Part shown: piece by piece, positions 8,301 to 59,651 of the stretch
How the letters are laid out: each line of letters begins with the position of its first letter
How positions within the stretch are numbered: position 1 is the first letter of the stretch
NCBI RefSeq assembly: GCF_004054195.1
Contig: NZ_SBIW01000007.1
Coordinates: 248,001-312,000, forward strand
Source: Mucilaginibacter gilvus
GTDB taxonomy: Bacteria > Bacteroidota > Bacteroidia > Sphingobacteriales > Sphingobacteriaceae
Reading direction: 5' to 3'
DNA length: 64,000 nt
Program-made: the position numbers and the translations under genes
The notes under the pieces: model-generated
What the model was told of the DNA's origin: nothing
Seen by the model: the letters and a program-made list of their open reading frames with translations, nothing else
The model's database searches: none

Positions 8301-10586
8301 ATGAAAAAACTACTTGTATCCGCTATAGGCCTTAGCCTTTTAATCGGAACTTGCCTAATGGCGCAGCCAAAAAAGCCTGCCGCCGCTAAAAGCAGTATCG
8401 ACCAAAAAGTTGATGCCCTTATTGCAAAAATGACCCTGGAAGAAAAGGTTGGCCAAATGACGGAGGTAACATCCGATGTAGTATCAAAAACCAATTCACC
8501 CATCCACCAGATAGACCCCGAAAAACTAAAAGAAGCCATCATGAAATACCATGTGGGCTCTATTTTAAACGTCACCGGCACCGCCTACACCCGCCAGCAT
8601 TGGTTTGATGTAATTACAGAAATACAAGGTGCCGCTGCTAAAGACCGCCTCAAGATTCCCGTTATATACGGGATAGATGCTATCCACGGCGTAACTTATA
8701 CCACTGGCAGTACCTTGTTTCCGCATGAAATTGCGCTCGCAGCAACTTTTAACCGCAACATCGCTCATACTTTAGGCGAGATAACAGCTTATGAAACACG
8801 CGCAAGCTATATCCCCTGGAATTACTCGCCTGTATTGGATTTGGGCAAATCGGCTTTATGGCCGCGTATTTATGAAACTATGGGAGAGGACCCATACCTG
8901 ATCAAAACGCTCGGTGCCGAAGTAATAAAAGGTTACCAAGGAAACGATATTAGCGATAAATACCACGTAGCCGCCTGTATGAAACATTACCTTGGGTACG
9001 GCTTCCCCATGAACGGGAAAGACCGCACGCCATCGTGGATACCGGACAGGTACATGCGCGAGTATTTTTTACCCCCATTTGCCGAGGCCGTAAAAGCTGG
9101 TGCCCGTACGCTCATGATCAACTCGGGCGAGATAAACGGGGTGCCTATCCACGCCAGCAAATATATGCTGACCGATGTATTGCGCGGCGAGCTGCATTTT
9201 GACGGTATTGCCGTAACCGACTGGAGGGATATACAATACTTAAACACCCGCCACCATGTGGCCGCCACCCAAAAAGACGCTGTAATGATTGCCGTTAATG
9301 CCGGCGTAGATATGAGCATGGTGCCTTATGATTATACCTTTTTTACCTACCTGGTAGAATTGGTTAAGGAGAAGAAAGTAACCATGGCGCGTGTAAACGA
9401 GGCCGTTCACCGCATATTAAAGGTAAAATATGAATTGGGGTTGTTTGAACGCCCTGTGGGCAACCCGGATGATTACCCTAAGTTTGGTTCGGAAGAATTC
9501 AGGATGGCGAGTGTGCAGGCAGCTAACGAAGCTATTACGCTGTTAAAGAATAACAACAAAATCCTGCCACTTAAGAAAGGCCTTAAAGTATTAGTTACCG
9601 GGCCAACCGCAAACACCATGCGGTCGTTAGACGGGGGATGGAGCTACACCTGGCAGGGCGATCAGTCTGATAAGTTTGCTGCCGATAAAAACACCATATT
9701 GGAAGCCATTCAACAGAAAATTGGCAAGGATAACGTAAACTACCAACCCGGTGCAGCATTCGACAGCTTGCTGAACGTGAGCGAGACAGTTAAAGCGGCT
9801 AAAAATTCGGATGTGATTATACTGTGCCTTGGCGAGCTTTCTTATACAGAAAACGTAGGTAATATTGACGACCTGAACCTCCCATTAGCCCAAATACAAC
9901 TGGCAACCGAATTAGCCAAAACCGGCAAACCTGTTATATTGGTATTAGCCGAAGGCAGGCCGAGAATTGTTACTAATGCCGACAAACTGTCAAACGCCAC
10001 AGTAATGGCATACTTACCCGGAAACGAAGGTGGCGATGCTATTGCAAGTGTATTATTTGGTGATGTAAACCCATCGGGCAGGTTGCCAATTACTTACCCG
10101 CGTTATGCCAACGCATTGGTTAACTACAACCGCAAAAACCTGGAGAACGGTAATTCTGATGATAGCCACGGCTATAACCCGCTTTATGAATTTGGGCACG
10201 GCTTAAGCTACACTACATTTGCTTATGATAACCTGCACATCAGCAAGCCAACGTTAAACGCTAATGAAACACTGACTATTACTGTAGATGTGAAAAACAC
10301 CGGGCAGGTAGAAGGTAAAGAATCTGTTTTGCTGTTCATCAGCCAGCTTTATGCCAGCATAGCACCAGACACTAAACGGCTGCGCGCTTTTGATAAGATA
10401 GGCCTTAAACCCGGCGAAACAAAAACAGTTACTTTTAAAATTACCGCTAAAGACCTTGCTTTTGTGAACGATGTAAGCAAAACAGTAACCGAAGCAGGCG
10501 AATTTAAAATACAGTTAGGTAGCCAAACTCAAAGCTTTAACTATGTATCAAACTTAGATGCACCATCCAGAACAGGAAGGTTATAA
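8301..10586 (+). CDS. bglX: Glycoside hydrolase family 3 beta-glucosidase (BglX-like)
   Basis: This 761-residue protein has a signal peptide (first ~21 residues), a GH3 N-terminal TIM barrel (about 35-380) with nucleophile D307 in GIAVTDWRD, a GH3 C-terminal alpha/beta sandwich (about 415-640), and a fibronectin III-like domain (about 670-745). The acid/base glutamate is probably in LGELSYTENVG by analogy with BglX. It would act in the periplasm on oligosaccharides and release glucose from cellobiose-type products. It follows the GH9 gene by 8 bp and is closed by a terminator, so the two are co-expressed. Linkage specificity (beta-1,4 versus beta-1,3 or -1,2) cannot be read from sequence. Confidence 0.95.
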   Translation: MKKLLVSAIGLSLLIGTCLMAQPKKPAAAKSSIDQKVDALIAKMTLEEKVGQMTEVTSDVVSKTNSPIHQIDPEKLKEAIMKYHVGSILNVTGTAYTRQHWFDVITEIQGAAAKDRLKIPVIYGIDAIHGVTYTTGSTLFPHEIALAATFNRNIAHTLGEITAYETRASYIPWNYSPVLDLGKSALWPRIYETMGEDPYLIKTLGAEVIKGYQGNDISDKYHVAACMKHYLGYGFPMNGKDRTPSWIPDRYMREYFLPPFAEAVKAGARTLMINSGEINGVPIHASKYMLTDVLRGELHFDGIAVTDWRDIQYLNTRHHVAATQKDAVMIAVNAGVDMSMVPYDYTFFTYLVELVKEKKVTMARVNEAVHRILKVKYELGLFERPVGNPDDYPKFGSEEFRMASVQAANEAITLLKNNNKILPLKKGLKVLVTGPTANTMRSLDGGWSYTWQGDQSDKFAADKNTILEAIQQKIGKDNVNYQPGAAFDSLLNVSETVKAAKNSDVIILCLGELSYTENVGNIDDLNLPLAQIQLATELAKTGKPVILVLAEGRPRIVTNADKLSNATVMAYLPGNEGGDAIASVLFGDVNPSGRLPITYPRYANALVNYNRKNLENGNSDDSHGYNPLYEFGHGLSYTTFAYDNLHISKPTLNANETLTITVDVKNTGQVEGKESVLLFISQLYASIAPDTKRLRAFDKIGLKPGETKTVTFKITAKDLAFVNDVSKTVTEAGEFKIQLGSQTQSFNYVSNLDAPSRTGRL

Positions 10587-10606
10587 TTTATTAAATAATA
10601 TGTAGG

Positions 10607-10634
10607 AGAGGCGCGAGAAATTGCGCCTCTTTTT
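10607..10634 (+). terminator. Intrinsic terminator of the GH9-GH3 operon
   Basis: An 8-bp GC-rich stem (10607-10614 with 10623-10630) is followed by a T run. It lies between the convergent GH3 and DUF3667 genes. Confidence 0.85.
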
Positions 10635-10660
10635 GTTTACGGGATATGCTTTTTATTTTC

Positions 10661-11785
10661 TTACACCGTTGTGATAGCCGTAATGGCGGCAACAATTAAA
10701 AAACACATACCGAAAACGAAGAAATACGCCAGCGAAACGCCTATCATTTTGCTTACTGTGCGCCACCTACTTCGATTGTAAACAACTCTTAAAGAGCGGT
10801 ATACATAATAAGTGACGCCTAAAAAAGCCACCAGGTCAAGTATCTCAATAACAGATTCCCATGTTGCAGGGATGATTAATTTCAGGACTATTTCGGCGGC
10901 TAAAAACAAAAACAGGAAGCAATGCAGGTGGATGGCATAAATAATATGTTCCACGTAAAATTTACGGTTTTTGCGAAAGGCGATGCTCAAAATAAACGCG
11001 AATAGCGGCAGCAAAAGAAACATCATTTTTGGGGCATTGTGCTGCAGCCCTTCTCTGAACATTTCCAGGCCGTTCTTGCCCTGGCTCTTCCAGCTATAAC
11101 TTTTCTTTTTTATGTAGCCGGTAAAAATACCATCACGCTGCGCTTCAGTCAGTTTATTTTGTTGAGCCAGGTATTCGGGATAGCTATCCGGGTCGTTTTT
11201 ATTATCCATCAACATGATGCCGCCGTTATAATCCTTAGGGTCCGGGTCGGCAAGCTTAGCAGCCGGAGCGGGGCTTTTCGCCTTTGCAATTTGCACTGTG
11301 TCAATAGTTTTAACCGCGCCCGGAACAAATTTATTTATAGTTTGTTTTATTTTGGCTTTATCCGCAGGGGTAAGACTCTTGTCCGAATCAATATCTTTGG
11401 CAAGGTTATGTTTTATGGTATCGGCCAGTACCCTCGTACTTTTGTTTGATGGCACTTCCTTAACTATTTCATGCCCGTTTTGCTTAAAAAACAAAACAAA
11501 AAATATCAAACTGATAAAAATATACATCTTCACCGGATGCAGGTATTGAGCCCGGCGCCCTTCGAGGTAATCAACTGTGAGCTTGCCGGGTTTTGCAAAA
11601 AGCGGTTTCAGCGTATGAAAAAACTGGTAGTCGAAGTGAAAATAATCACTTACGGCATGGTTGATCATGTGCCCAAAGCTTTCCTTCATCTGCAGGTTCT
11701 CCTGCCCACACTTATGGCAGAAATTTCCTTGAAGTTCGGTTCCGCAGTTAAGGCAATCAGTTTCGTGCCGGTAATGCTTTTTCAT
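10661..11785 (-). CDS. DUF3667-family zinc-ribbon membrane protein
   Basis: This 374-residue protein starts with a zinc ribbon (C11xxC14 and C23xxC26), followed by the DUF3667 segment YLEGRRAQYLHPVKMY and a transmembrane helix near residue 85-105. A charged, soluble middle region (about 110-255) precedes four C-terminal helices (about 255-374). The combination is typical of Bacteroidota DUF3667 proteins, whose function is unknown. The cytoplasmic ribbon suggests a metal-dependent or protein-binding sensor, which is inference only. It stands alone, convergent with the GH3 gene. Confidence 0.85.
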   Translation of the reverse strand: MKKHYRHETDCLNCGTELQGNFCHKCGQENLQMKESFGHMINHAVSDYFHFDYQFFHTLKPLFAKPGKLTVDYLEGRRAQYLHPVKMYIFISLIFFVLFFKQNGHEIVKEVPSNKSTRVLADTIKHNLAKDIDSDKSLTPADKAKIKQTINKFVPGAVKTIDTVQIAKAKSPAPAAKLADPDPKDYNGGIMLMDNKNDPDSYPEYLAQQNKLTEAQRDGIFTGYIKKKSYSWKSQGKNGLEMFREGLQHNAPKMMFLLLPLFAFILSIAFRKNRKFYVEHIIYAIHLHCFLFLFLAAEIVLKLIIPATWESVIEILDLVAFLGVTYYVYRSLRVVYNRSRWRTVSKMIGVSLAYFFVFGMCFLIVAAITAITTV

Positions 11786-11862
11786 AGCTTGTTGTAAGTG
11801 AGGTTTTTAGGTAAGCTATTTTAAACTTTTTATTTATTCTTTTCGTTTTGTATGCTTCTGTT

Positions 11863-13122
11863 CTAAGCGTGCTGTATAGCGTGTTTCAAAGCAGCGTTGT
11901 GTTTATACCTGAAAACAAACGGGAATATGATGGCTATTACCAGGGCATAAGCAGCAAAGGTAAGCCAGATGCCGTGCCAGTCTTTACCCTCGTTAGGTAA
12001 GGTAAAGTATTTATCTATTATATAACCGCTTATCCGGCTTCCGAAGAAAGCACCAAAACCATTTACCATCATCATAAACATACCCTGCGCACTTCCTCTT
12101 ATCTCCGGGGAAGCCTGTGTTTCTACAAACAAAGAACCCGAAATATTAAAGAAATCGAAAGCCATACCATAAACGATGCATGATAATACGATCATCCATA
12201 AACCTCCCGCAGGGTCGCCGAAAGCAAACAGGCCAAAGCGCAGTACCCATGCCAACATGCTGAACAACATTACGTATTTGATACCAAATTTGCGGAGGAA
12301 GAAAGGGATAGCCAGGATAAATAAAGTTTCAGACACTTGCGATATAGACATAATAACGGCTGGGTATTTTACCGCCCTTAAGCCCTGATAAGCAGGTACT
12401 TTAGCAAAATCGTGCAGGTAGGTATCGCCGTAGGCATTTGTTAATTGTAATGCTGCGCCTAATAGCAAGGAAAAGATAAAGAATATGGCAAACTTTGGGG
12501 TTTTAAACAGTGCAAACGCATCTAAGCCTAACAGGGTATAGAATGATTTATTGCCCGTGCTCACAGCAAAAGGCCTGCATTTGGGAAGGGTAAAGGAGTA
12601 AAGCCCCAATATTAACGATACAAACGATGCAATATAAAACTGGTTGGAAGTAGTTTCGCTATGCGTTAAACTTACCACCCATAGGGCAACAATAAAACCT
12701 ACAGTACCCCAGGTGCGGATGGGTGGGTATTCTTTTACTACATCAATATTTTGATTTTTAAGGGCCGAATAAGCCACTGTAATAGAAAGAGATAGCGTTG
12801 GCATGTAAAACGCCATGTTAAGCAGTAATACCCAAAAGAATGTGCCGGGGTCTTTAACCATTGGCAGGCAAAACAAAACACATGCGCCGCATATATGCAT
12901 AATGCCATAAAGCTTTTCGGCATTGATTAACCTATCAGCAATAATACCTGTTATGGTGGGCATAAATATGGACGCGATGCCCATGGTAGAAAAGATAGCC
13001 CCAAACTGCGCCCCCGACCAATGTTTATTTTGGAACCAGTATGCGCCGATTGTAAGGAGCCAGGCTCCCCAAATAAAAAATTGCATGAAATTCATCAGTA
13101 TTAAGCGGAACTTAATATTCAT
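11863..13122 (-). CDS. Nucleoside/H+ symporter, MFS (NupG-like)
   Basis: This 419-residue protein has twelve predicted transmembrane helices and the Nuc_H_symport (PF03825) N-terminus with MQFFIWGAWLLTIG. It also has the conserved GIIADRLINAEKLYG loop between helices 2 and 3. NupG and XapB of this family import nucleosides with protons across the inner membrane. Bacteroidota carry several paralogues, and some may move other sugars or nucleosides, so the substrate is only predicted. It is monocistronic, with about 75 bp before the next minus-strand gene downstream. Confidence 0.88.
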   Translation of the reverse strand: MNIKFRLILMNFMQFFIWGAWLLTIGAYWFQNKHWSGAQFGAIFSTMGIASIFMPTITGIIADRLINAEKLYGIMHICGACVLFCLPMVKDPGTFFWVLLLNMAFYMPTLSLSITVAYSALKNQNIDVVKEYPPIRTWGTVGFIVALWVVSLTHSETTSNQFYIASFVSLILGLYSFTLPKCRPFAVSTGNKSFYTLLGLDAFALFKTPKFAIFFIFSLLLGAALQLTNAYGDTYLHDFAKVPAYQGLRAVKYPAVIMSISQVSETLFILAIPFFLRKFGIKYVMLFSMLAWVLRFGLFAFGDPAGGLWMIVLSCIVYGMAFDFFNISGSLFVETQASPEIRGSAQGMFMMMVNGFGAFFGSRISGYIIDKYFTLPNEGKDWHGIWLTFAAYALVIAIIFPFVFRYKHNAALKHAIQHA

Positions 13123-13225
13123 ATAGAACAGTTTAAATCAGTTATAGTAAAATTTAACACCAAAAGCGAAAATTACTGAAATAAGGCGATATAGGAAAGC
13201 GGACTCGCATAGTTTATCCAAAATA

Positions 13226-13257
13226 ATTGAAACGAAAGGCCAAAAACCTTATCTTTA
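13226..13257 (+). promoter_or_regulatory. Candidate promoter of the second barrel gene
   Basis: A TTG (13227-13229) lies 20 bases before TATCTTTA (13250-13257), which is close to TAnnTTTG. This is the spacing expected for the Bacteroidota -33/-7 pair. Transcription would start near 13264, giving a very short leader before the ATG at 13278. Confidence 0.4.
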
Positions 13258-13277
13258 ACCAACTTAAATTGCAAATT

Positions 13278-13883
13278 ATGACAAAGTTTTTCACGCTCCT
13301 GCTGGCTTCAGCAATTCTTTCGCTAACGGCGGTTTCACAAACTAAAAATACCAACCAAATTGGCGTTAATGCGGGTTTGAACTTTGCAACCGTTACCACC
13401 AGCGCTTACACCAACAGTGATTACAGAACGGGGTTTAACCTAGGTATATCGCTTGATCATTTTTTCTCGGAAAGCTGGAGTATTAAGGGTAAATTGGCTT
13501 ACGACCAAAAAGGCTGGAAAGGTTATCTTGCAACTCCTACCGATCAATTTAATACTACTTATAATTTAGACTATTTAACTATCCCGATTATGGCTAACTG
13601 GCACTTTGGCCGTACTAAAAATTGGTACCTTAATTTTGGCCCTTATGTTGGTATTTTATTGAATGCCAAAGAAACCAGCAACGGCAGCGATGTGAAAAAT
13701 ATTTTTAACACAACCGATGCCGGCCTTGACGTCGGCATCGGCATTAAATTCCCTGTATCAGAAAAGGCAAAGTTCTTTATAGAAATTAATGGGCAAGGCG
13801 GTATTGCTGATATTGTGAAGGATAATACTTATTCAGCATTAAGGAATAGTGTAAGCAATTTGAATATTGGCTTAAATTTTTAA
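13278..13883 (+). CDS. PorT-family outer membrane beta-barrel protein
   Basis: The ATG at 13278 gives a 201-residue protein with a signal peptide (MTKFFTLLLASAILSLTAVSQ). An upstream in-frame TTG at 13227 overlaps the promoter-like element and would put 17 polar residues before the signal, so it is rejected. The mature part begins IGVNAGLNFATV, has alternating strands, and ends NIGLNF, as expected for a small barrel of the PF13568 class. It resembles the barrel at 5746 in plan but is not a close copy. The role is unknown. Confidence 0.87.
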   Translation: MTKFFTLLLASAILSLTAVSQTKNTNQIGVNAGLNFATVTTSAYTNSDYRTGFNLGISLDHFFSESWSIKGKLAYDQKGWKGYLATPTDQFNTTYNLDYLTIPIMANWHFGRTKNWYLNFGPYVGILLNAKETSNGSDVKNIFNTTDAGLDVGIGIKFPVSEKAKFFIEINGQGGIADIVKDNTYSALRNSVSNLNIGLNF

Positions 13884-13943
13884 AGATCGGTTGCCTATAA
13901 TGGTAAGGGGGTGCCGGTCCTGGGAATTCCCCTTTAGCATTAA

Positions 13944-14558
13944 TTAGGAAGCTTTCCGCTTATTCAGCTCATCGCGAATTTTGGCAGCCTTCTCATAAGC
14001 TTCTTCGGAAAGAGCCTGCTGCAAGCGTGTTTTTAACTCATCATCACTTAGGGAAGTGAACGAACCCGAAGGCGTGGAAGGTGTTTTCTCTTCCGAGGTT
14101 TCGTTAATGTTCTCTAAATAAACAAAATCGTTGCCTTCTATCACAATACCCGCGGTAGAAAGAATAAACTCATAAGTATAGATAGGGCAATCGAACCTTA
14201 CAGATACAGCAATAGCATCTGAGGTGCGGGCATCTATCTCTACCGTTTTTTTTCCATCAAAACAAACCAGCTTAGCATAAAATATACCATCCACCAGGTT
14301 GTAGATGATGATCTCCTGCACGGTGATGTTAAATGCCTGGCCAAGGCTCTTAAACAGATCGTGTGTAAGGGGACGACTCGGGGTCATTTTCTCTATCTCG
14401 ATAGCAATGGCCTGCGCCTCGAAACTACCGATGATAATAGGTAATCTTCGGCGGCCGCTAACTTCGCCTAAAACCAGTGCGTACGCGCCGGACTGCGTTT
14501 GGCTGTAGGATAGGCCCACAATATCCAGCTTTATCTTTTTCATATCATTACCCATCAC
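13944..14558 (-). CDS. Bifunctional nuclease-family (DUF151) protein with UVR motif
   Basis: This protein of 199-204 residues has the DUF151 (BFN) domain at about 10-135, with LVLGE and LPIIIGSFEAQAIA, and a C-terminal UvrB/UvrC helical motif (about 165-200, EEAYEKAAKIRDEL). The start is uncertain: GTG at 14558 or ATG at 14543 (MKKIKLDIVGLS), and the second fits the family better. Plant and bacterial DUF151 proteins have reported nuclease activity, but the role in Bacteroidota is not established. The gene follows etfA by 12 bp and is probably the third gene of the etfBA operon, a neighbour pairing I believe recurs in this phylum. Confidence 0.88.
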   Translation of the reverse strand: MMGNDMKKIKLDIVGLSYSQTQSGAYALVLGEVSGRRRLPIIIGSFEAQAIAIEIEKMTPSRPLTHDLFKSLGQAFNITVQEIIIYNLVDGIFYAKLVCFDGKKTVEIDARTSDAIAVSVRFDCPIYTYEFILSTAGIVIEGNDFVYLENINETSEEKTPSTPSGSFTSLSDDELKTRLQQALSEEAYEKAAKIRDELNKRKAS

Positions 14559-52918: not shown

Positions 52919-53482
52919 ATGACCGAACTCAAAAACTTTATCAGCAGTTATGCCAGCTTTAATGAGGCCGAACTGGACGATATTGTAGGCCGGTTTAAAC
53001 AACGCAGCATCGCCAAAAATGACTTTCTTTTACTGGAAGGTACCGTATGCCAGGACCTGGTTTTTGTGGAGGAAGGCTGTTTACGTTTGTATTACCTGGA
53101 CGATGACGTAGAGATCTCGGTTTGGTTTGCTTTCCCAAACTCATCGGCCATTGATATTTACAGCTTTATAAGTGATAAACCGTCCAAATACTTTTTACAG
53201 GTGATAGAGGATAGTACGATACTTTACCTGCCCAAAGCAGAGCTGACGAGACTTTATGCTGAGTACCCCACCATGCAGGAAATGATGCGTAAGTTTTGGG
53301 AGGATGCCGTGCTGAATTTGATTGATCGCTTTACCGCGCTCCAGCGCGATTCCGCCGAAAAACGCTACCTCGATTTGATGTCGAAGCCGCCATATTTACA
53401 GAAGATCCCGCAAAAATATCTTGCTTCGTTCATCGGTGTTACACCTACTTCGTTAAGCCGAATCCGCAAAGGAATTCGCTAA
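52919..53482 (+). CDS. Crp/Fnr-family regulator with cNMP-binding domain
   Basis: This 187-residue protein has a cNMP-binding beta-roll (about 10-115) and a C-terminal DNA-binding helix-turn-helix (about 150-187, with YLASFIGVTPTSLSRIRKGI). The usual cAMP contact arginine and serine are not evident, so it may not bind cAMP, as in many Bacteroidota Crp-like proteins. Its stop codon overlaps the stop of the convergent membrane-protein gene by 4 bases. It may respond to the sigma-factor neighbourhood, but no site shows this. Confidence 0.9.
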   Translation: MTELKNFISSYASFNEAELDDIVGRFKQRSIAKNDFLLLEGTVCQDLVFVEEGCLRLYYLDDDVEISVWFAFPNSSAIDIYSFISDKPSKYFLQVIEDSTILYLPKAELTRLYAEYPTMQEMMRKFWEDAVLNLIDRFTALQRDSAEKRYLDLMSKPPYLQKIPQKYLASFIGVTPTSLSRIRKGIR

Positions 53483-54744
53483 ACCACCTTACTTTGCTTG
53501 TACTTCCGCGCAAAGTAAATGGCAGAGAACGCCGTTAGCACTAACCCGATAGCTGATAAACCCATCACACTGTTTGAGAAAAAGGAAACCCAGTTGAGTT
53601 TTACCTTAAAGATCTCTTTAGAAAGTAATACACCCACGCTGCCTATATAGCCAAAGGAGTCGGCGAGGTAAATCAGAAAACCAACATTCCCCGCATACTT
53701 AAATGTAGCGATAAGTCGCTCGAAAAAGACAGCGTTAAAAGGGATATAAACCATATAAAGCCCCAAACCCACAGTCGCCATCCACCAAATAGGGGCGATA
53801 TATCCGCCGGCGAATGCCAGTGTGGATAGGCCGGCTAACAAAAAGCCCATGCCAATAAATACATGCGCGGTGATCAACGCTTTGTAGCTGTCGCGGATCA
53901 TCACCATACTGCCAATGAGGATAAGAATAATAAGCGTGATGGGTGTTTCAGTTTTGGAGAAGATGGAGGGTTGGTTAAAAAAGCCCATTTCCTTCCACAT
54001 GTCGGCACCAAAATTATCGCGGATATCGCGGAAGATCGTCGCAAAGGTATAAATGAGGATACAGGCTGCCAATCCGGGTAAAAACGCGCGTACAAAAGTC
54101 TGGCGCTGGGCTTTACTCATGGGTGTGCGTTCCATCCGTTCGGCAATATCCCCGGCATCGGGCGGGGGTATTTTCTCCATCAGGAACACAAACAGCAGAA
54201 GCGGCCCGGCAAATAAAAGCCCGGTAAAGAACGGTACCCAATACTCGGTAACGCCAAATTCCAGCATCAGCCAGCCACCGGCCGACCGTACAAAACCCGA
54301 CGCGAAAATAAAGCTCACAGCGAGTGTAGCGCCAATAAAATCGGTACCGCGCCGCCCTTCCACATAAGAAAACACTACGCCCCAAAGCATCCCCAGCGGG
54401 AAACCATTGATGAACAGGAAAATGATATTGTAAGGTACCGGTACCAATGCGAAGCAAAGCCAGCTCAACCAGGAAATGCCGGTAAGTACCAATATGGTGA
54501 CCCAGCGCCCGTGCCGTTTTAATTCGGCAATATACTTTACACCATAAAATTTGGCCAGCATATAACCCAACACCTGGCTAATTACCAACAGGGTTTTGTA
54601 GCTGTACCCCCAAACGGTGATCCCATCAAAGGTAGCGACCGTAAATGATTTGCGGAACCCGAAGATCATGGTGTAGGCCAAAAACACCACCACGGCAGCG
54701 TAAATGCTGGTTTGTATTTTATTGCGGGATGCAATGGTTGACAT
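53479..54744 (-). CDS. MFS-like membrane protein (DUF5690 type)
   Basis: This 421-residue protein has about twelve predicted transmembrane helices. The N-terminus (YAAVVVFLAYTMIFGFRKSF) and the middle loop GRRGTDFIG with the helix FIFASGFVRSAGGWLML are characteristic of a DUF5690-like group of MFS-related proteins; I recognise the group from memory only. The substrate is unknown. It is convergent with the Crp-family gene and divergent from the PVC-type dehydrogenase gene. Confidence 0.8.
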   Translation of the reverse strand: MSTIASRNKIQTSIYAAVVVFLAYTMIFGFRKSFTVATFDGITVWGYSYKTLLVISQVLGYMLAKFYGVKYIAELKRHGRWVTILVLTGISWLSWLCFALVPVPYNIIFLFINGFPLGMLWGVVFSYVEGRRGTDFIGATLAVSFIFASGFVRSAGGWLMLEFGVTEYWVPFFTGLLFAGPLLLFVFLMEKIPPPDAGDIAERMERTPMSKAQRQTFVRAFLPGLAACILIYTFATIFRDIRDNFGADMWKEMGFFNQPSIFSKTETPITLIILILIGSMVMIRDSYKALITAHVFIGMGFLLAGLSTLAFAGGYIAPIWWMATVGLGLYMVYIPFNAVFFERLIATFKYAGNVGFLIYLADSFGYIGSVGVLLSKEIFKVKLNWVSFFSNSVMGLSAIGLVLTAFSAIYFARKYKQSKVV

Positions 54745-54871
54745 AGGCGAATTATTTTGGCGGAAGATAGCAAGATATTAGCCGTATAAAACCATATCGT
54801 AACATCTTTACAACAAATGGGCTAAATAGGCCGATAAAATTTTATATTGCCGCTTTAAAGCACCTGTTACA

Positions 54872-57532
54872 ATGTTAAAATTCTCCTTCACCTTGTTTTT
54901 CTCGCTGATACTTTTAGGCTTAATAAAATATTATAGCGCACCGTCCGTAAATGCTGCTGCCGATTCAACCCTCGTGCATAAACAATCAGCAGATATAAGG
55001 CAAACCAGGCAGCAAACCTGGCCCGATGGTTTAACGGTTACGCCCTTTGCCGGCCCGGAACTTACTCCAAGCCCCGCCTGCCTTGCAGCAGCGCCCACCG
55101 GTGAAATATTTGTTGGTGTAGATATGATGGGCTCATTGGGCAAAGCGCCCGGAAAAGGCAGGATATTGAGACTGGTTGACGCAGATAACGACGGCAAGAT
55201 AGATCAGCATACCGAATTTGCGCGGGTGGATAATCCGCGCGGGATATTTGTTTTAGGCGATAAGGTATACGTGTTGCATACCATATTCTCAAAAGAAACA
55301 CAAAAAGCAACGGGCATGGACCTGGTTGTATTTGAAGATAAAGACCATGACGGCGTTGCCGACGGCCCATCACAACCGGTTATTGAACATTTGAGTAACC
55401 CTAATATGCTTGCCGATAGAGGAACAGACCACGCCACCAACGGTATCCGTATGGGTATTGATGGCTGGATCTACATCGCCGTGGGCGATTTTGGCTTTCA
55501 CGACGCTATAGACCGTTCGGGTAAAAAACTAACCATGCTTGGTGGCGGCATCGTACGGGTGCGGCCTGATGGTACCGAAATGGAGATCTTCTCTCACGGC
55601 ACACGCAATATTTATGACGTAGCGATAGACCCGTATATGAACATTTTCACCCGGGATAATACCAACGACGGCGGTGGCTGGAATATCCGGTTCTCGCATC
55701 ATATCCAGTCTGGCGAATATGGCTATCCGGTGTTGTTTCAACATTTTACCGACGAGATATTGCCTGCACTGGCCGATTTAGGCGGCGGATCGGGCACCGG
55801 TGCCTTATTTATGGATGAGCCTACCTGGCCCGAAAAATACAACCATGTACCCATGATGGCCGACTGGGGCAGAAACGAACTGTACATCCATCGTATAACA
55901 CCAAACGGTGCCAGCTTCACCCAAAAACAAGAGGAATTTATCCAGCTACCCCAAATTACTGACCTTGACGTAGACGGTTCGGGAAGGCTTTATCTCTCTG
56001 CCTGGGATGGTGCAGGTTATTCGGGCGACCCTTCCAAAGGGTATGTTGTACGTGCAGTACCAACAGGATGGACATATAAAGCATTCCCAAACCTGAAAAC
56101 CGCTTCGGTTAAAGAATTGGGCAATTTACTTGCATCAGGTAGTGCGGTTACCCGTTTATATGCATCGCAGGAACTCCTTGCGCGTCCGGCTGATGAGGCA
56201 GCGAAAGCGGCACTCGTCATTGCAGCCGATAAAGGCCAGCCGTTGTACGCGCGCGTTGCCGGGGTGTATACCTACGCCCAAATTGCTGGAGAAATCGGCA
56301 TACCCGCCCTTGTGCAGCTCTCTGCAGACAAAGAGTTGAAAGAGTTTGCCTTAAAGGCGCTAACCGACAGGAAAGGCCGCTTGCAGAATGTACCGATGGA
56401 ACCTTTTATAAATGGCCTTAAAGATCCATCAGCAAGGGTACAAGCGGCAGCTATAGTAGGCCTTGGTCGCCTTGGCAGGGTAGAGGCCGCTAACGCACTT
56501 TTAGCAACCCGCGTGCCGGCGTCTTTCGGAGCGCCCGCAAAAGGAACGGAAGGACAGCACGCTAAACCGAATGCAGATATTGTAACCCCTCACCTGGCTG
56601 TGCGCACTTTGGTAAATTTAAACGCGGTAAGCGCTTGTTTAAGCGCCATCGGAACAGAACATTCAACCCTGGCGCTTTGGGCACTGCGATACATGCATGA
56701 TGCCAAAGCTGTAGACGGGGTGATAGCTGCTTATGCGAAGGCCAAAACCCCGAAACTAAAAGAGCAAATATTGGCTACCCTGGGCAGGCTTTACAAAACC
56801 GAGGCGCCCTATGACGGTTCCTGGTGGTGGAGTACCCGGCCAGATTCGCACGGGCCATATTACAAAGCTATCATCTGGGAATCTTCGCCTAAGATAAAGG
56901 CATTCCTTAGCACCTTGCGAAGCAAAGCAAGCCCAACAGGTAAAGTATTTTTTGCTGATTTAAATGCACGCAACCAAATGGAGATTTTAGCTTTTGGTGG
57001 CGAAGAAAAGGTGCCGGTAGTTAAGGAAGCAAAGATAGACCTGGAGAAGATACGGAATAAAAAAGGGCAGATCGGTAAATCATCCATCGAAGATATCATG
57101 CTTGCGCTTGCCAAGATCAAAGGCGACCCGCTTAAGGGGAAAGCGCTTTTCGCTCAACAGGGTTGCATAGCCTGCCATAGTATTAAAAAAGGCGAAAAAT
57201 TGAAAGGGCCGTTTATGGGGCAAATAGGCTCTATCATGACCCGCCAGCAAATTGCCGAATCGGTACTTAAACCAAGCGCATCCATTTCCCAGGGATTTGC
57301 TACGGTAACCATCACAGCAAAAGGAAACAAAACTTACATGGGTTTTATCACCGAAGAATCTGCCCAGAAAGTTGTAATGCGCGATATTGGCGGGAATGTT
57401 TACACCGTAAAAGCGGCTGACATCCTTTCCCGCAAGGAAATGAAAACCTCTATGATGCCTACAGGCCTGGCCAACGCGCTATCGTACGAGGAGTTTGCTT
57501 CGCTGGTGACCTTTTTATCACTACAGAAATAG
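54872..57532 (+). CDS. PVC-type secreted dehydrogenase with HEAT repeats and cytochrome c domain
   Basis: This 886-residue protein has a signal anchor (about 1-30) and a beta-propeller dehydrogenase domain (about 50-390, related to the TIGR02604 putative membrane-bound dehydrogenase and PQQ-type sugar dehydrogenases). Two DxDxDG-type loops (DADNDGKID and DKDHDGVAD) may bind calcium. HEAT-like repeats (about 400-640) lead to a C-terminal heme domain of the TIGR02603 class with CxxCH at C765 to H769. Such proteins probably oxidise sugars or alcohols in the periplasm and pass electrons to cytochrome c. The substrate is unknown. It is a single gene. Confidence 0.9.
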   Translation: MLKFSFTLFFSLILLGLIKYYSAPSVNAAADSTLVHKQSADIRQTRQQTWPDGLTVTPFAGPELTPSPACLAAAPTGEIFVGVDMMGSLGKAPGKGRILRLVDADNDGKIDQHTEFARVDNPRGIFVLGDKVYVLHTIFSKETQKATGMDLVVFEDKDHDGVADGPSQPVIEHLSNPNMLADRGTDHATNGIRMGIDGWIYIAVGDFGFHDAIDRSGKKLTMLGGGIVRVRPDGTEMEIFSHGTRNIYDVAIDPYMNIFTRDNTNDGGGWNIRFSHHIQSGEYGYPVLFQHFTDEILPALADLGGGSGTGALFMDEPTWPEKYNHVPMMADWGRNELYIHRITPNGASFTQKQEEFIQLPQITDLDVDGSGRLYLSAWDGAGYSGDPSKGYVVRAVPTGWTYKAFPNLKTASVKELGNLLASGSAVTRLYASQELLARPADEAAKAALVIAADKGQPLYARVAGVYTYAQIAGEIGIPALVQLSADKELKEFALKALTDRKGRLQNVPMEPFINGLKDPSARVQAAAIVGLGRLGRVEAANALLATRVPASFGAPAKGTEGQHAKPNADIVTPHLAVRTLVNLNAVSACLSAIGTEHSTLALWALRYMHDAKAVDGVIAAYAKAKTPKLKEQILATLGRLYKTEAPYDGSWWWSTRPDSHGPYYKAIIWESSPKIKAFLSTLRSKASPTGKVFFADLNARNQMEILAFGGEEKVPVVKEAKIDLEKIRNKKGQIGKSSIEDIMLALAKIKGDPLKGKALFAQQGCIACHSIKKGEKLKGPFMGQIGSIMTRQQIAESVLKPSASISQGFATVTITAKGNKTYMGFITEESAQKVVMRDIGGNVYTVKAADILSRKEMKTSMMPTGLANALSYEEFASLVTFLSLQK

Positions 57533-57815
57533 GTCAGACCTCGTTGCTATAGTTTTTTGTGGAATTGTAAAATGGCGTTTAGTTTTGGAGATCGCCATTG
57601 TTATACTTCGGTTGGTCATACACCGGGAAAAATGGTATGGAGATTATTTATTTCTGAACTCAAGCTTACAATTTTCGTAGTAGTAAGCCGGGGAAGGATA
57701 ATACATTGGGTGACGAATTTCTTGGAGGTAAATTAACTTTATCATCAACTTATCTTAACACCAAATAGCGTAGAGAATAAATTACGGGGCTTATATTTAC
57801 GCGCTATTATTCGCT
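57533..57815. other. Intergenic gap with possible eroded coding tail
   Basis: The 283-bp gap holds no gene I can support. One plus-strand frame (about 57660-57770) reads NFRSSKPGKDNTLGDEFLGG and ends in STYLNTK at a stop, which looks protein-like but is preceded by a stop with no start. An ATG frame at 57572-57736 (54 codons) has no recognisable features. TATATTTA at 57792-57799 may be the -7 box of the phosphatase gene. Confidence 0.3.
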
Positions 57816-59651
57816 ATGAAAAAACTAAGTATTTTGATCCTGGCATTGCCTGTTACAATAGCAGTAAGCCAAACCGCAAACAGCCAGATAAAACCTTATA
57901 CAGTTGCCAACGCCCATTCGCACAACGATTATAAAAACGGTATTCCCTTTTACCGGGCTTATGAAAAAGGTTTTGGCTCAATTGAGGCCGATGTTTATGC
58001 TGTTAGCGGCAGGTTGCTGGTCGCTCACGATAAAAGGGACACCGCCGCGAGCCGGTCGCTACGAAACCTGTATCTGACCCCGCTTGCCGAAAAACTAAAA
58101 CACGACCCGCACAGGCAATTGCGTTTGCTGATAGAAATAAAGCAGGATCACAAAGCGGTGCTATCGTTAGTGATGCAGGAGCTTAAGCCCTTTGCAGAAT
58201 ATATCTCGTCGCCGGGGCACCCGGGTAATTTATCTATTGTGATGACAGGCGCTGTACCGCCAGCCGTAGAAATGGTAAACTACCCGGATTGGATAACTTT
58301 TGATGTTGACCATCTGAATGGTTTTACACCACAGCAATGGCAAAAAATAGGGTTGGTAAGTTTCCCTTTGAGTAAATATGTGCGTTGGAATGGCAAAGGA
58401 GTATTGAACAGCAAGGAGATAGCGAGGCTAAAAGGGGCGATAGACAGTGTTCATCAGGCCGGTAAAATGATCCGTTTTTGGGAAAGCCCCGATACAAAGA
58501 GCAGCTGGCTTGCACTAATGCGCCTGGGCGTTGATGTTATAGGTACCGATAAGATAGAAGAGCTTGGCGACTTTTTAAATAAGAAGGCTAAAAATGAATA
58601 TTCAGCAAAGCAGGCATATCCGGTATATCACCCAACCCACAGCGCAGATGGAACTGTAAAAAAAGTAAAGAACATTATTTTATGCATCGGCGACGGCATG
58701 GGGTTGGCACAACTATACGCTACTTATACAGCCAATCATGGGCAACTCAATATTTTTCAAATGAAGAATATTGGTTTCTCTATTACCAATTCGGCGGACG
58801 CTTACATTACAGATTCGGCGGCTGGTGCCACTGCCTTTGCATCCGGGCAGAAAACAAACGACAGGGCTATTGGGGTGGATGCAACCGGCAAGCGTTTAAG
58901 GTCTTTAGCGGTGTACAGCGCCGAAGCTGGCAAAAAAACAGCCGATATAGCGGTATGCCAGTTAACTGACGCTACTCCGGACGCGTTTTACGCGCACCAA
59001 TCAGAAAGGAGCGACAGCCTTGCTATCGCCGCGGAGATACTTAATTCCAATATCGATATTTTCGTGGGAACTGCCTTTACGGATTTTACGACAAAGGTAA
59101 ACGGCGTACCAATAATAGATAAAATGAAACAAAGAGGTTATACCGTTATCCGCAAGTTTGATGATTTTCTGAAATCGCCCGCAAAAAAAATACTGGCGCT
59201 GATGGACGACAGCGCTACAAGGCCTAAAATAGCGGGCAGGGGCGAGTATTTATCTCTGGCCCTGAAAAAGGTAACCGGCGCTTTCAAAAACCACCCGAAA
59301 GGCTTTTTTATAATGGCAGAAGGCTCGCAGATAGACTACGGTGGCCACAACAATAATTTAACGCAGGTAATTACCGAAAATGCCGATTTCGACAGAATGG
59401 TAGGAGAGGCCTTGCGTTTTGCAGATGAAGATGGCGAAACGCTTGTTATTGTAACAGCTGACCACGAAACCGGCGGACTAACCCTGCTAGACGGTGATAT
59501 TAACAAAGGCTACGTTTTGGGAGATTTTAGTACGAATGACCATACAGGTACCCCGGTGCCTGTGTTCGCCTATGGCCCGCATTCGGGAGATTTTAGGGGT
59601 GTTTACAACAATACCGAAATTTTCAATAAGATATTAAAGCTGATAAGATAA
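57816..59651 (+). CDS. Fusion of a PI-PLC/GDPD-like phosphodiesterase and an alkaline phosphatase
   Basis: This 611-residue secreted protein has a signal peptide (about 1-24) and two enzyme domains. The N-terminal domain (about 28-265) is a phosphodiesterase TIM barrel with NAHSHNDY (H34, H36), E57/D59 and H71, matching the uncharacterised PI-PLC/GDPD superfamily group. The C-terminal domain (about 285-611) is an alkaline phosphatase with metal ligand D293 in IGDGMG, nucleophile S334 in DSAAGATAF, and the ADHETGG metal motif. Together they could cut a phosphodiester and then release phosphate from the product, a complete phosphorus-scavenging step in one protein. Confidence 0.93.
   Translation: MKKLSILILALPVTIAVSQTANSQIKPYTVANAHSHNDYKNGIPFYRAYEKGFGSIEADVYAVSGRLLVAHDKRDTAASRSLRNLYLTPLAEKLKHDPHRQLRLLIEIKQDHKAVLSLVMQELKPFAEYISSPGHPGNLSIVMTGAVPPAVEMVNYPDWITFDVDHLNGFTPQQWQKIGLVSFPLSKYVRWNGKGVLNSKEIARLKGAIDSVHQAGKMIRFWESPDTKSSWLALMRLGVDVIGTDKIEELGDFLNKKAKNEYSAKQAYPVYHPTHSADGTVKKVKNIILCIGDGMGLAQLYATYTANHGQLNIFQMKNIGFSITNSADAYITDSAAGATAFASGQKTNDRAIGVDATGKRLRSLAVYSAEAGKKTADIAVCQLTDATPDAFYAHQSERSDSLAIAAEILNSNIDIFVGTAFTDFTTKVNGVPIIDKMKQRGYTVIRKFDDFLKSPAKKILALMDDSATRPKIAGRGEYLSLALKKVTGAFKNHPKGFFIMAEGSQIDYGGHNNNLTQVITENADFDRMVGEALRFADEDGETLVIVTADHETGGLTLLDGDINKGYVLGDFSTNDHTGTPVPVFAYGPHSGDFRGVYNNTEIFNKILKLIR

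Follow-up and report, generated by a model that had tools for sequence, protein, structure and literature searches.

A single open reading frame of Mucilaginibacter gilvus encodes a protein in which a PLC-like phosphodiesterase domain is followed by a PhoA-type alkaline phosphatase domain. We propose that this is probably a periplasmic two-step enzyme of organic-phosphorus use, the N-terminal domain converting a diester to a monoester and the C-terminal domain releasing phosphate from the monoester, and that in most of the relatives examined it is fed by a SusCD pair. Soil Bacteroidota are thought to be important for the step from phosphodiester to phosphate and, given an active diesterase half, a single periplasmic protein would carry out the full conversion of phosphodiesters to phosphate.

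The stretch of DNA analysed, which we call the window, comprises 64,000 nucleotides of the M. gilvus genome; other loci are designated by an L and a number. An earlier note, made from the letters of the window, had described a fusion of two domains at this place, and that observation is real: one intact frame of 611 amino acids holds both domains and the residues that the note had named.

The fusion gene and its product

According to the ORF list and translation, the gene runs on the forward strand from an ATG at 57816 to a stop codon ending at 59651. The list holds no ORF of 90 or more amino acids on the reverse strand over the gene, and the single reverse frame that was translated is full of stops. 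A chance ORF or an assembly artefact is ruled out by the existence of full-length relatives in many genomes. The main features, all on the forward strand, are listed below with their conservation, which is counted over 55 distinct fusions (from 64 fusion frames) or over 77 aligned N-terminal domains.

54872..57532, + strand: upstream neighbour, a heme-binding protein of PVC type containing HEAT and cytochrome c parts; ends 283 bases before the fusion gene and lies outside the system
57816..59651, + strand: whole fusion gene, a single uninterrupted ORF of 611 amino acids plus stop, with full-length relatives
57816..57887, + strand: signal-peptide-like N-terminus, residues 1-24 (KK, hydrophobic core, ANS-Q; by inspection)
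57891..58586, + strand: N domain, a PLC-like (GDPD/PI-PLC superfamily) barrel, about residues 26-257 (AF2 model, Foldseek and VIA matches, hhalign)
57915..57923, + strand: H34-S35-H36; H36 kept in 77/77 N domains, H34 in 73/77
57984..57992, + strand: E57-A58-D59, putative metal-ligand pair (ExD); 77/77, aligned with E-L-D of 2pz0 (match E 0.53)
58026..58028, + strand: H71, putative second catalytic histidine; 77/77
58134..58136, + strand: E107, a likely third acidic ligand; 30 of the 55 fusions have E and the other 25 D, and all 77/77 N domains have E or D
58659..59648, + strand: alkaline phosphatase domain, PhoA family, about residues 282-611 (PF00245 and 2w5v alignment)
58692..58694, + strand: D293, predicted metal ligand; 55/55 fusions
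58815..58817, + strand: S334, predicted nucleophile; 55/55 fusions and 13/13 stand-alone phosphatases, opposite DSA-GATAF in the 2w5v alignment
59460..59465, + strand: D549-H550, predicted metal ligands of ADHETGG; 55/55 fusions

The protein begins like one with a signal peptide, has, on inspection, no lipobox cysteine and carries nothing further on the C-terminal side of the phosphatase, which is its last domain; these features suggest that it is exported and probably periplasmic. The earlier description of a secreted protein holds as far as export is concerned, on the strength of the signal-peptide-like start seen by inspection, while the word 'secreted' is better replaced by 'exported, probably periplasmic'. 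The fusion is the sole PF00245 gene of the genome, which also contains one single-domain relative of the N domain, at 32% identity. Upstream, over 53479-57532, a gene for a DUF5690 protein is divergent from that for the PVC-type heme-binding protein; the fusions of L060, L079 and L083 likewise have a relative of this heme-binding protein close by.

The N-terminal domain: fold and family

The N domain belongs to the PLC-like phosphodiesterase superfamily, with the barrel fold, two histidines and acidic metal ligands. Structure prediction, which the earlier note had proposed, gave a good AlphaFold model of this domain (mean pLDDT 89.5, pTM 0.87), the fold of which matches those of glycerophosphodiester phosphodiesterases (GDPDs): the top rows of a Foldseek search are GDPDs (best E 2.1e-8), and the model superposes on 3no3 with Z 16.6 (rmsd 2.7, 198 residues aligned) and on the GDPDs 2pz0 and 3ch0 with Z 16.4 and 15.8. 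The Ca-dependent PI-PLC 5fyp reaches Z 16.2, about equal to the best GDPD, and the SMaseD/PLD-type structures 9yd8, 3rlg and 1xx1 follow at 14.7, 13.5 and 12.9. An unrelated glucanase barrel, 7wwc, also scores 15.9, so that Z alone cannot name the family, and the assignment uses Foldseek rank, residues and profiles together.

At the level of sequence the domain has no significant match among the solved structures, the best profile match being that to 2pz0 (E 0.53). GDPD_2 (PF13653) is found at residues 219-246 with 24.3 bits in the full protein and 26.6 when the domain is scored by itself, its cut-off being 27; PF03009 scores 15.8 against 23.6, and PF00388 is not among the families listed for the domain. 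By these Pfam cut-offs the N domain lies outside the classical GDPD family (PF03009 / PF13653). The 'PI-PLC/GDPD-type active-site arrangement' proposed previously is borne out in its superfamily and its residues, while the Pfam cut-offs for GDPD are not reached. Since the GDPD and PI-PLC fold matches are about equal and the GDPD cut-offs are missed, glycerophosphodiester as the substrate is a guess.

The same comparisons bear on a different reading, under which the first domain would be a lipase of PI-PLC or SMaseD-like type, acting on a membrane lipid and releasing a phosphorylated head group or cyclic phosphate that the phosphatase goes on to dephosphorylate. The stretch S35-H36-N37-D38-Y39 resembles S-H-N-T-Y, the motif of eukaryotic-type PI-PLC, and a PI-PLC-X protein from the same class (L129) reads THNSYNYKKG; the tie between 5fyp and the GDPDs in Z, and the PI-PLC-C1 gene in the L097 cluster of a relative, are likewise in keeping with a lipase. 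Against this, hhalign pairs the N domain with an alignment of 18 PF03009 proteins from relatives at a probability of 98-99 and with two single PI-PLC-X proteins at 0.5 and 0.1, an uneven comparison of single sequences with an alignment of 18 GDPDs, and among 21 N domains Pfam most often reports GDPD_2 (14), DUF4996 (7) and GDPD (6), with PI-PLC-X absent from these. We consider the lipase quite unlikely and prefer a diesterase that feeds the phosphatase, as set out at the beginning.

Conserved residues of the two putative active sites

The motifs of the N domain are HSHND at residue 34, IEADV at 56, AHDK at 70 and LIEIK at 105, the last containing E107 and K109. H34, H36, N37, D38, E57, D59, H71 and K109 are each present in 55/55 distinct fusions, and the catalytic set that the earlier note had picked out in this domain (the histidine of HSHNDY, E57/D59 and H71) is therefore kept throughout. 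Among single-domain relatives, H36, E57, D59, H71 and K109 occur in 20/20, as does an E or D at position 107. H34 is found in 16/20, with F in its place in L126, L120, L031 and L030; one of these four is the single-domain relative in the M. gilvus genome itself (L126:9572, contig C28), which retains H36. The L126 group, with F at 34 and H36 kept, is a useful natural variant. The aligners disagree on which residue corresponds to the GDPD histidine, HMMER placing H34 on it and global hhalign placing H36 on the histidine of HRG; going by conservation, H36 is the likelier catalytic histidine.

The C-terminal domain is a PhoA-type alkaline phosphatase which, judged from its sequence, has a full catalytic set. 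Pfam places PF00245 (Alk_phosphatase) at residues 285-557 with E 7.2e-56 and 190.3 bits against a cut-off of 24.4, and the nearest solved relative, the TAB5 alkaline phosphatase 2w5v, aligns end to end over residues 281-610 (E 2.1e-67). Its motifs are IGDGMG at 291 (D293), TDSAAG at 332 (S334) and TADHETGG at 547; D293, S334, T387, R398, E502, D507, H511, D549, H550 and H576 are each found in 55/55 fusions, while position 385 has D in 48 of the 55 and G in the other 7. The roles of these residues (serine nucleophile, arginine, metal ligands) are presumed from homology. The 'complete alkaline phosphatase set' of D293, S334 and ADHETGG described before is accordingly present in all 55 distinct fusions. 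Loss of key residues from one domain in close homologues, an outcome that the note had named as contrary to its reading, was looked for and not found, both sets being intact in 55/55.

This conservation also speaks to the proposal that the phosphatase alone is catalytically important and that the N domain serves to bind substrate or as a structural element. In favour of it, the published test of a homologue concerns monoesterase activity only (PMC8812569, in its available part); yet a binding module could lose H36, H71, E57, D59, K109 and the acidic residue at 107, all of which are retained in 55/55 fusions and 20/20 single-domain proteins, and the N domain also persists by itself. We regard a non-catalytic N domain as very unlikely, and a catalytic one remains our preferred reading.

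Distribution and history

The earlier note had suggested that the frequency of the fusion be determined across the Bacteroidota, and this search, run over 395 sampled genomes of the phylum, found the fusion in at least 25 (that of M. gilvus included), from 8 families of one class; the figure is a lower bound, with up to three candidates scored per genome. Some match was found in 210/395, mostly to one domain. A set of 60 relative genomes gave a both-domain match in 16, M. gilvus included, all of them within the 37 genomes of its own genus, and Mucilaginibacter is the source of every one of the 25 named fusion loci, L060-L084 (L080 being M. phyllosphaerae). No single place in any of 200 matching plasmid records covered 80% of the query.

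Trees were built after exclusion of N hits shorter than 180 residues, phosphatase hits shorter than 250 residues and identical domains. In the tree of 68 phosphatase domains the 55 fused ones form one side of a branch, with support 96/98, opposite the 13 stand-alone ones; such a grouping is as expected from one fusion event. The stand-alone phosphatase of L097 sits on a very long branch. The fused members of the 77-domain N tree do not form a single clade (AU p 7.9e-48, a test that long branches may affect), and two groups of single-domain proteins, nearly all from the same genus, adjoin and sit among the fusions. Our reading is that the phosphatase was lost at least twice; loss followed by regain is a possible alternative history. 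Fusion L047 is joined, on long branches, by one row from the Elusimicrobia.

In the single-domain group nearest to the fusion a lipobox-like cysteine ends the signal peptide in 7/7 rows (L085-L089, L091, L096), a feature that the fusion lacks. Single N-domain proteins of L085-L091 and L096 have a member of one protein cluster as neighbour in several cases; Pfam shows the member in L089 to be cyanophycin-synthetase-like. Two further proteins, of 1117 and 1089 amino acids, join the N domain to a PF04185 phosphoesterase through a middle part resembling a beta-propeller (L124:6631-9984 and L125:9820-13089); both keep H34, H36, E57, D59 and H71, and a SusC/SusD pair adjoins that of L124 on the opposite strand.

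Gene neighbourhood

The survey took in the window, L060-L084 and L097-L121, together 51 fusion loci. Flanks measured roughly 6 kb at the named loci and reached 9 kb elsewhere, and contig ends shortened some of them; the SusC/SusD names were confirmed by Pfam on examples. A SusC or SusD gene lies within five genes of the fusion on the same strand at 37/51 loci, SusD being directly upstream at 28; one locus (L108) has SusC or SusD on the opposite strand only and 13 have none near. By a rough estimate, from 24 SusD matches in a genome of 5.4 Mb (some of them pieces of genes), about 5% of random genes would have a SusD that near. FecR and ECF sigma genes often accompany SusC/SusD at these loci, and sigma and FecR genes also stand beside the fusion of L067, which was scored as being without SusC/SusD. 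Some clusters include further genes, for Metallophos, PI-PLC-C1, PHP or Phosphodiest proteins or a second alkaline phosphatase; of these, the report counts Metallophos, PI-PLC-C1 and Phosphodiest as other phosphoesterases. That of L097, around 8671-14314, has SusC, SusD, PI-PLC-C1, a stand-alone alkaline phosphatase and a PHP-domain protein beside the fusion, a rich phosphoester-degrading set.

Around the fusion in the window none of these genes is present, and the window is one of 9 among 26 Mucilaginibacter loci with no SusC/SusD near. With the SusD of L080 as query, the best match in the M. gilvus genome was 32% and those in the genomes of L060, L079 and L083 were 33-36%, against 85% in that of L061. 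Because these low matches occur in M. gilvus and in three sister genomes whose fusions form one clade with the window gene (100/88), we infer that the SusD-bearing importer, searched for by its SusD alone, was lost in this sub-clade.

Upstream of the fusion in L066, L067 and L073, and more loosely in L075-L078, TTAAC/TTTAA repeats stand about 11 bases apart, a Pho-box-like spacing, and an imperfect form occurs at 57533-57815 of the window. A fixed Pho-box-like pattern had 3 matches genome-wide and its backwards control 2, which is no enrichment, and a search of the literature for a Bacteroidetes Pho box yielded nothing useful.

Proposed mechanism

We suggest that the two-step reaction takes place in the periplasm at low phosphate. 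The N domain would be metal-dependent, with H36 and H71 as an acid-base pair and E57, D59 and E107 as the metal site, and would cut a phosphodiester to a phosphomonoester; the PhoA-type domain, with Ser334 as nucleophile and its own metal sites, would then strip the phosphate from the monoester. In most of the relatives examined the SusC/SusD pair probably carries the substrate across the outer membrane, and in the sub-clade of the window, which is without the pair, the enzyme presumably acts on whatever reaches the periplasm. The diesterase activity, the substrate, the order of the steps and the transport role of SusCD are all inferred.

A role in phosphate scavenging, as the earlier note had it, is supported by the SusC/SusD genes near 37/51 loci, by the further phosphoesterases at some of them and by the induction of a homologue, Fjoh_3249, at phosphate depletion, as reported in the available part of PMC8115612. 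Several points count against the main reading: the SusD partner is missing here, 13/51 loci have no SusC/SusD near, the Pho-box pattern is not enriched, PhoA1 and PhoA2 of the published system are not abundant in the proteomes, and the N domain also occurs by itself.

The two domains might instead act on different substrates and be fused for co-export and co-regulation only, with no product passed between them. The linker of about 25 residues, the existence of single-domain relatives and a full-length model that has no usable interface, poor as that model is, would all suit such an arrangement; the products of the first chemistry are, on the other hand, substrates of the second, and the fusion has been retained in 8 families. 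Co-export alone is in our judgement somewhat unlikely, and we continue to favour sequential action. Hand-over of the monoester between the domains, without release, as the earlier note had suggested, is an attractive but speculative idea. The full-length model (mean pLDDT 70.1, pTM 0.58, weak in the phosphatase) is too poor for the geometry of the domains or such a hand-over to be read from it and, since some relatives have the N domain and no attached phosphatase, coupling is not obligatory.

A bolder proposal, and an unlikely one, is that of a channelling machine from diester to phosphate, with a dedicated SusCD importer for oligomers that bear phosphodiesters, phosphoglycans or deacylated phospholipid head groups being examples. 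On this view a distinct PLC-like family marked by SHNDY would start from the N domain, which is fused also to a beta-propeller and PF04185 (L124, L125), and lineages would adjust the system by dropping the importer or the phosphatase.

The fusion is a clean case for asking whether the joining of sequential hydrolases speeds the release of phosphate. The conservation data point to H36, H71 and S334 as ready mutants, and the fusion with an importer, the fusion without one and the N domain alone make up a natural comparison set.

Comparison with known systems

A fusion of this kind is already in print and the protein of the window is another member; that it might be novel is ruled out, because in Lidbury et al. 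2020 (PMC8115612) Fjoh_3249, the PhoA1 of Flavobacterium johnsoniae and predicted there to be periplasmic, already carries this Pfam pair, pf00245 and pf13653. The window protein is likened to it through these annotations, PF13653 being below its cut-off here. From the available parts of that paper, PhoA1 belongs to the PUSII cluster with PusD2, PusC2 and a FecR-like gene, its transcript has a fold change of 7.40 (apparently log2) under phosphate depletion, neither PhoA1 nor PhoA2 is abundant in the proteomes, and its authors suggest that the extra domain may widen the range to phosphodiesters. In a later study (Lidbury et al. 2022, PMC8812569, likewise in its available part), PhoA1 restored pNPP hydrolysis to a phoX mutant of P. 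putida and is thus a phosphomonoesterase; removal of both phoA1 and phoA2 abolished part of the inducible activity, and its authors saw no essential role of either protein in scavenging from phosphomonoesters. We found no published assay of the diesterase half of a PhoA1-type fusion in the available parts of the literature on it. Table 1 of PMC8812569 places PF13653 on fjoh_3187 and not on fjoh_3249, the reverse of Table 1 of PMC8115612, and the gene order around the present fusions favours the latter assignment. The layout of PUSII matches the surroundings of the fusion in many relatives; PUSII has PusCD2 beside PhoA1, whereas the window gene has no SusC/SusD adjacent and its genome no close SusD, a difference of cluster and not of protein.

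Solved structures allow a comparison for each of the two parts. TAB5 alkaline phosphatase (2w5v) has the serine and metal ligands of the window phosphatase in common with it, while its aligned chain of 375 residues lacks the N-terminal barrel. The GDPDs 3no3, 2pz0 and 3ch0 share with the N domain the barrel and the H / ExD / H arrangement, although they carry an HRG motif where the window protein has HSHNDY, and there is no significant sequence match between them. PI-PLC 5fyp and the SMaseD/PLD-type structures 9yd8, 3rlg and 1xx1 share the superfamily fold, with no support at profile level for PI-PLC-X in two hhalign comparisons. To these known systems the present analysis adds the grouping of the fused phosphatases, the invariant sites of both domains, the strong link to SusCD and its absence at the fusion of the window, the single-domain sisters and a second type of N-domain fusion.
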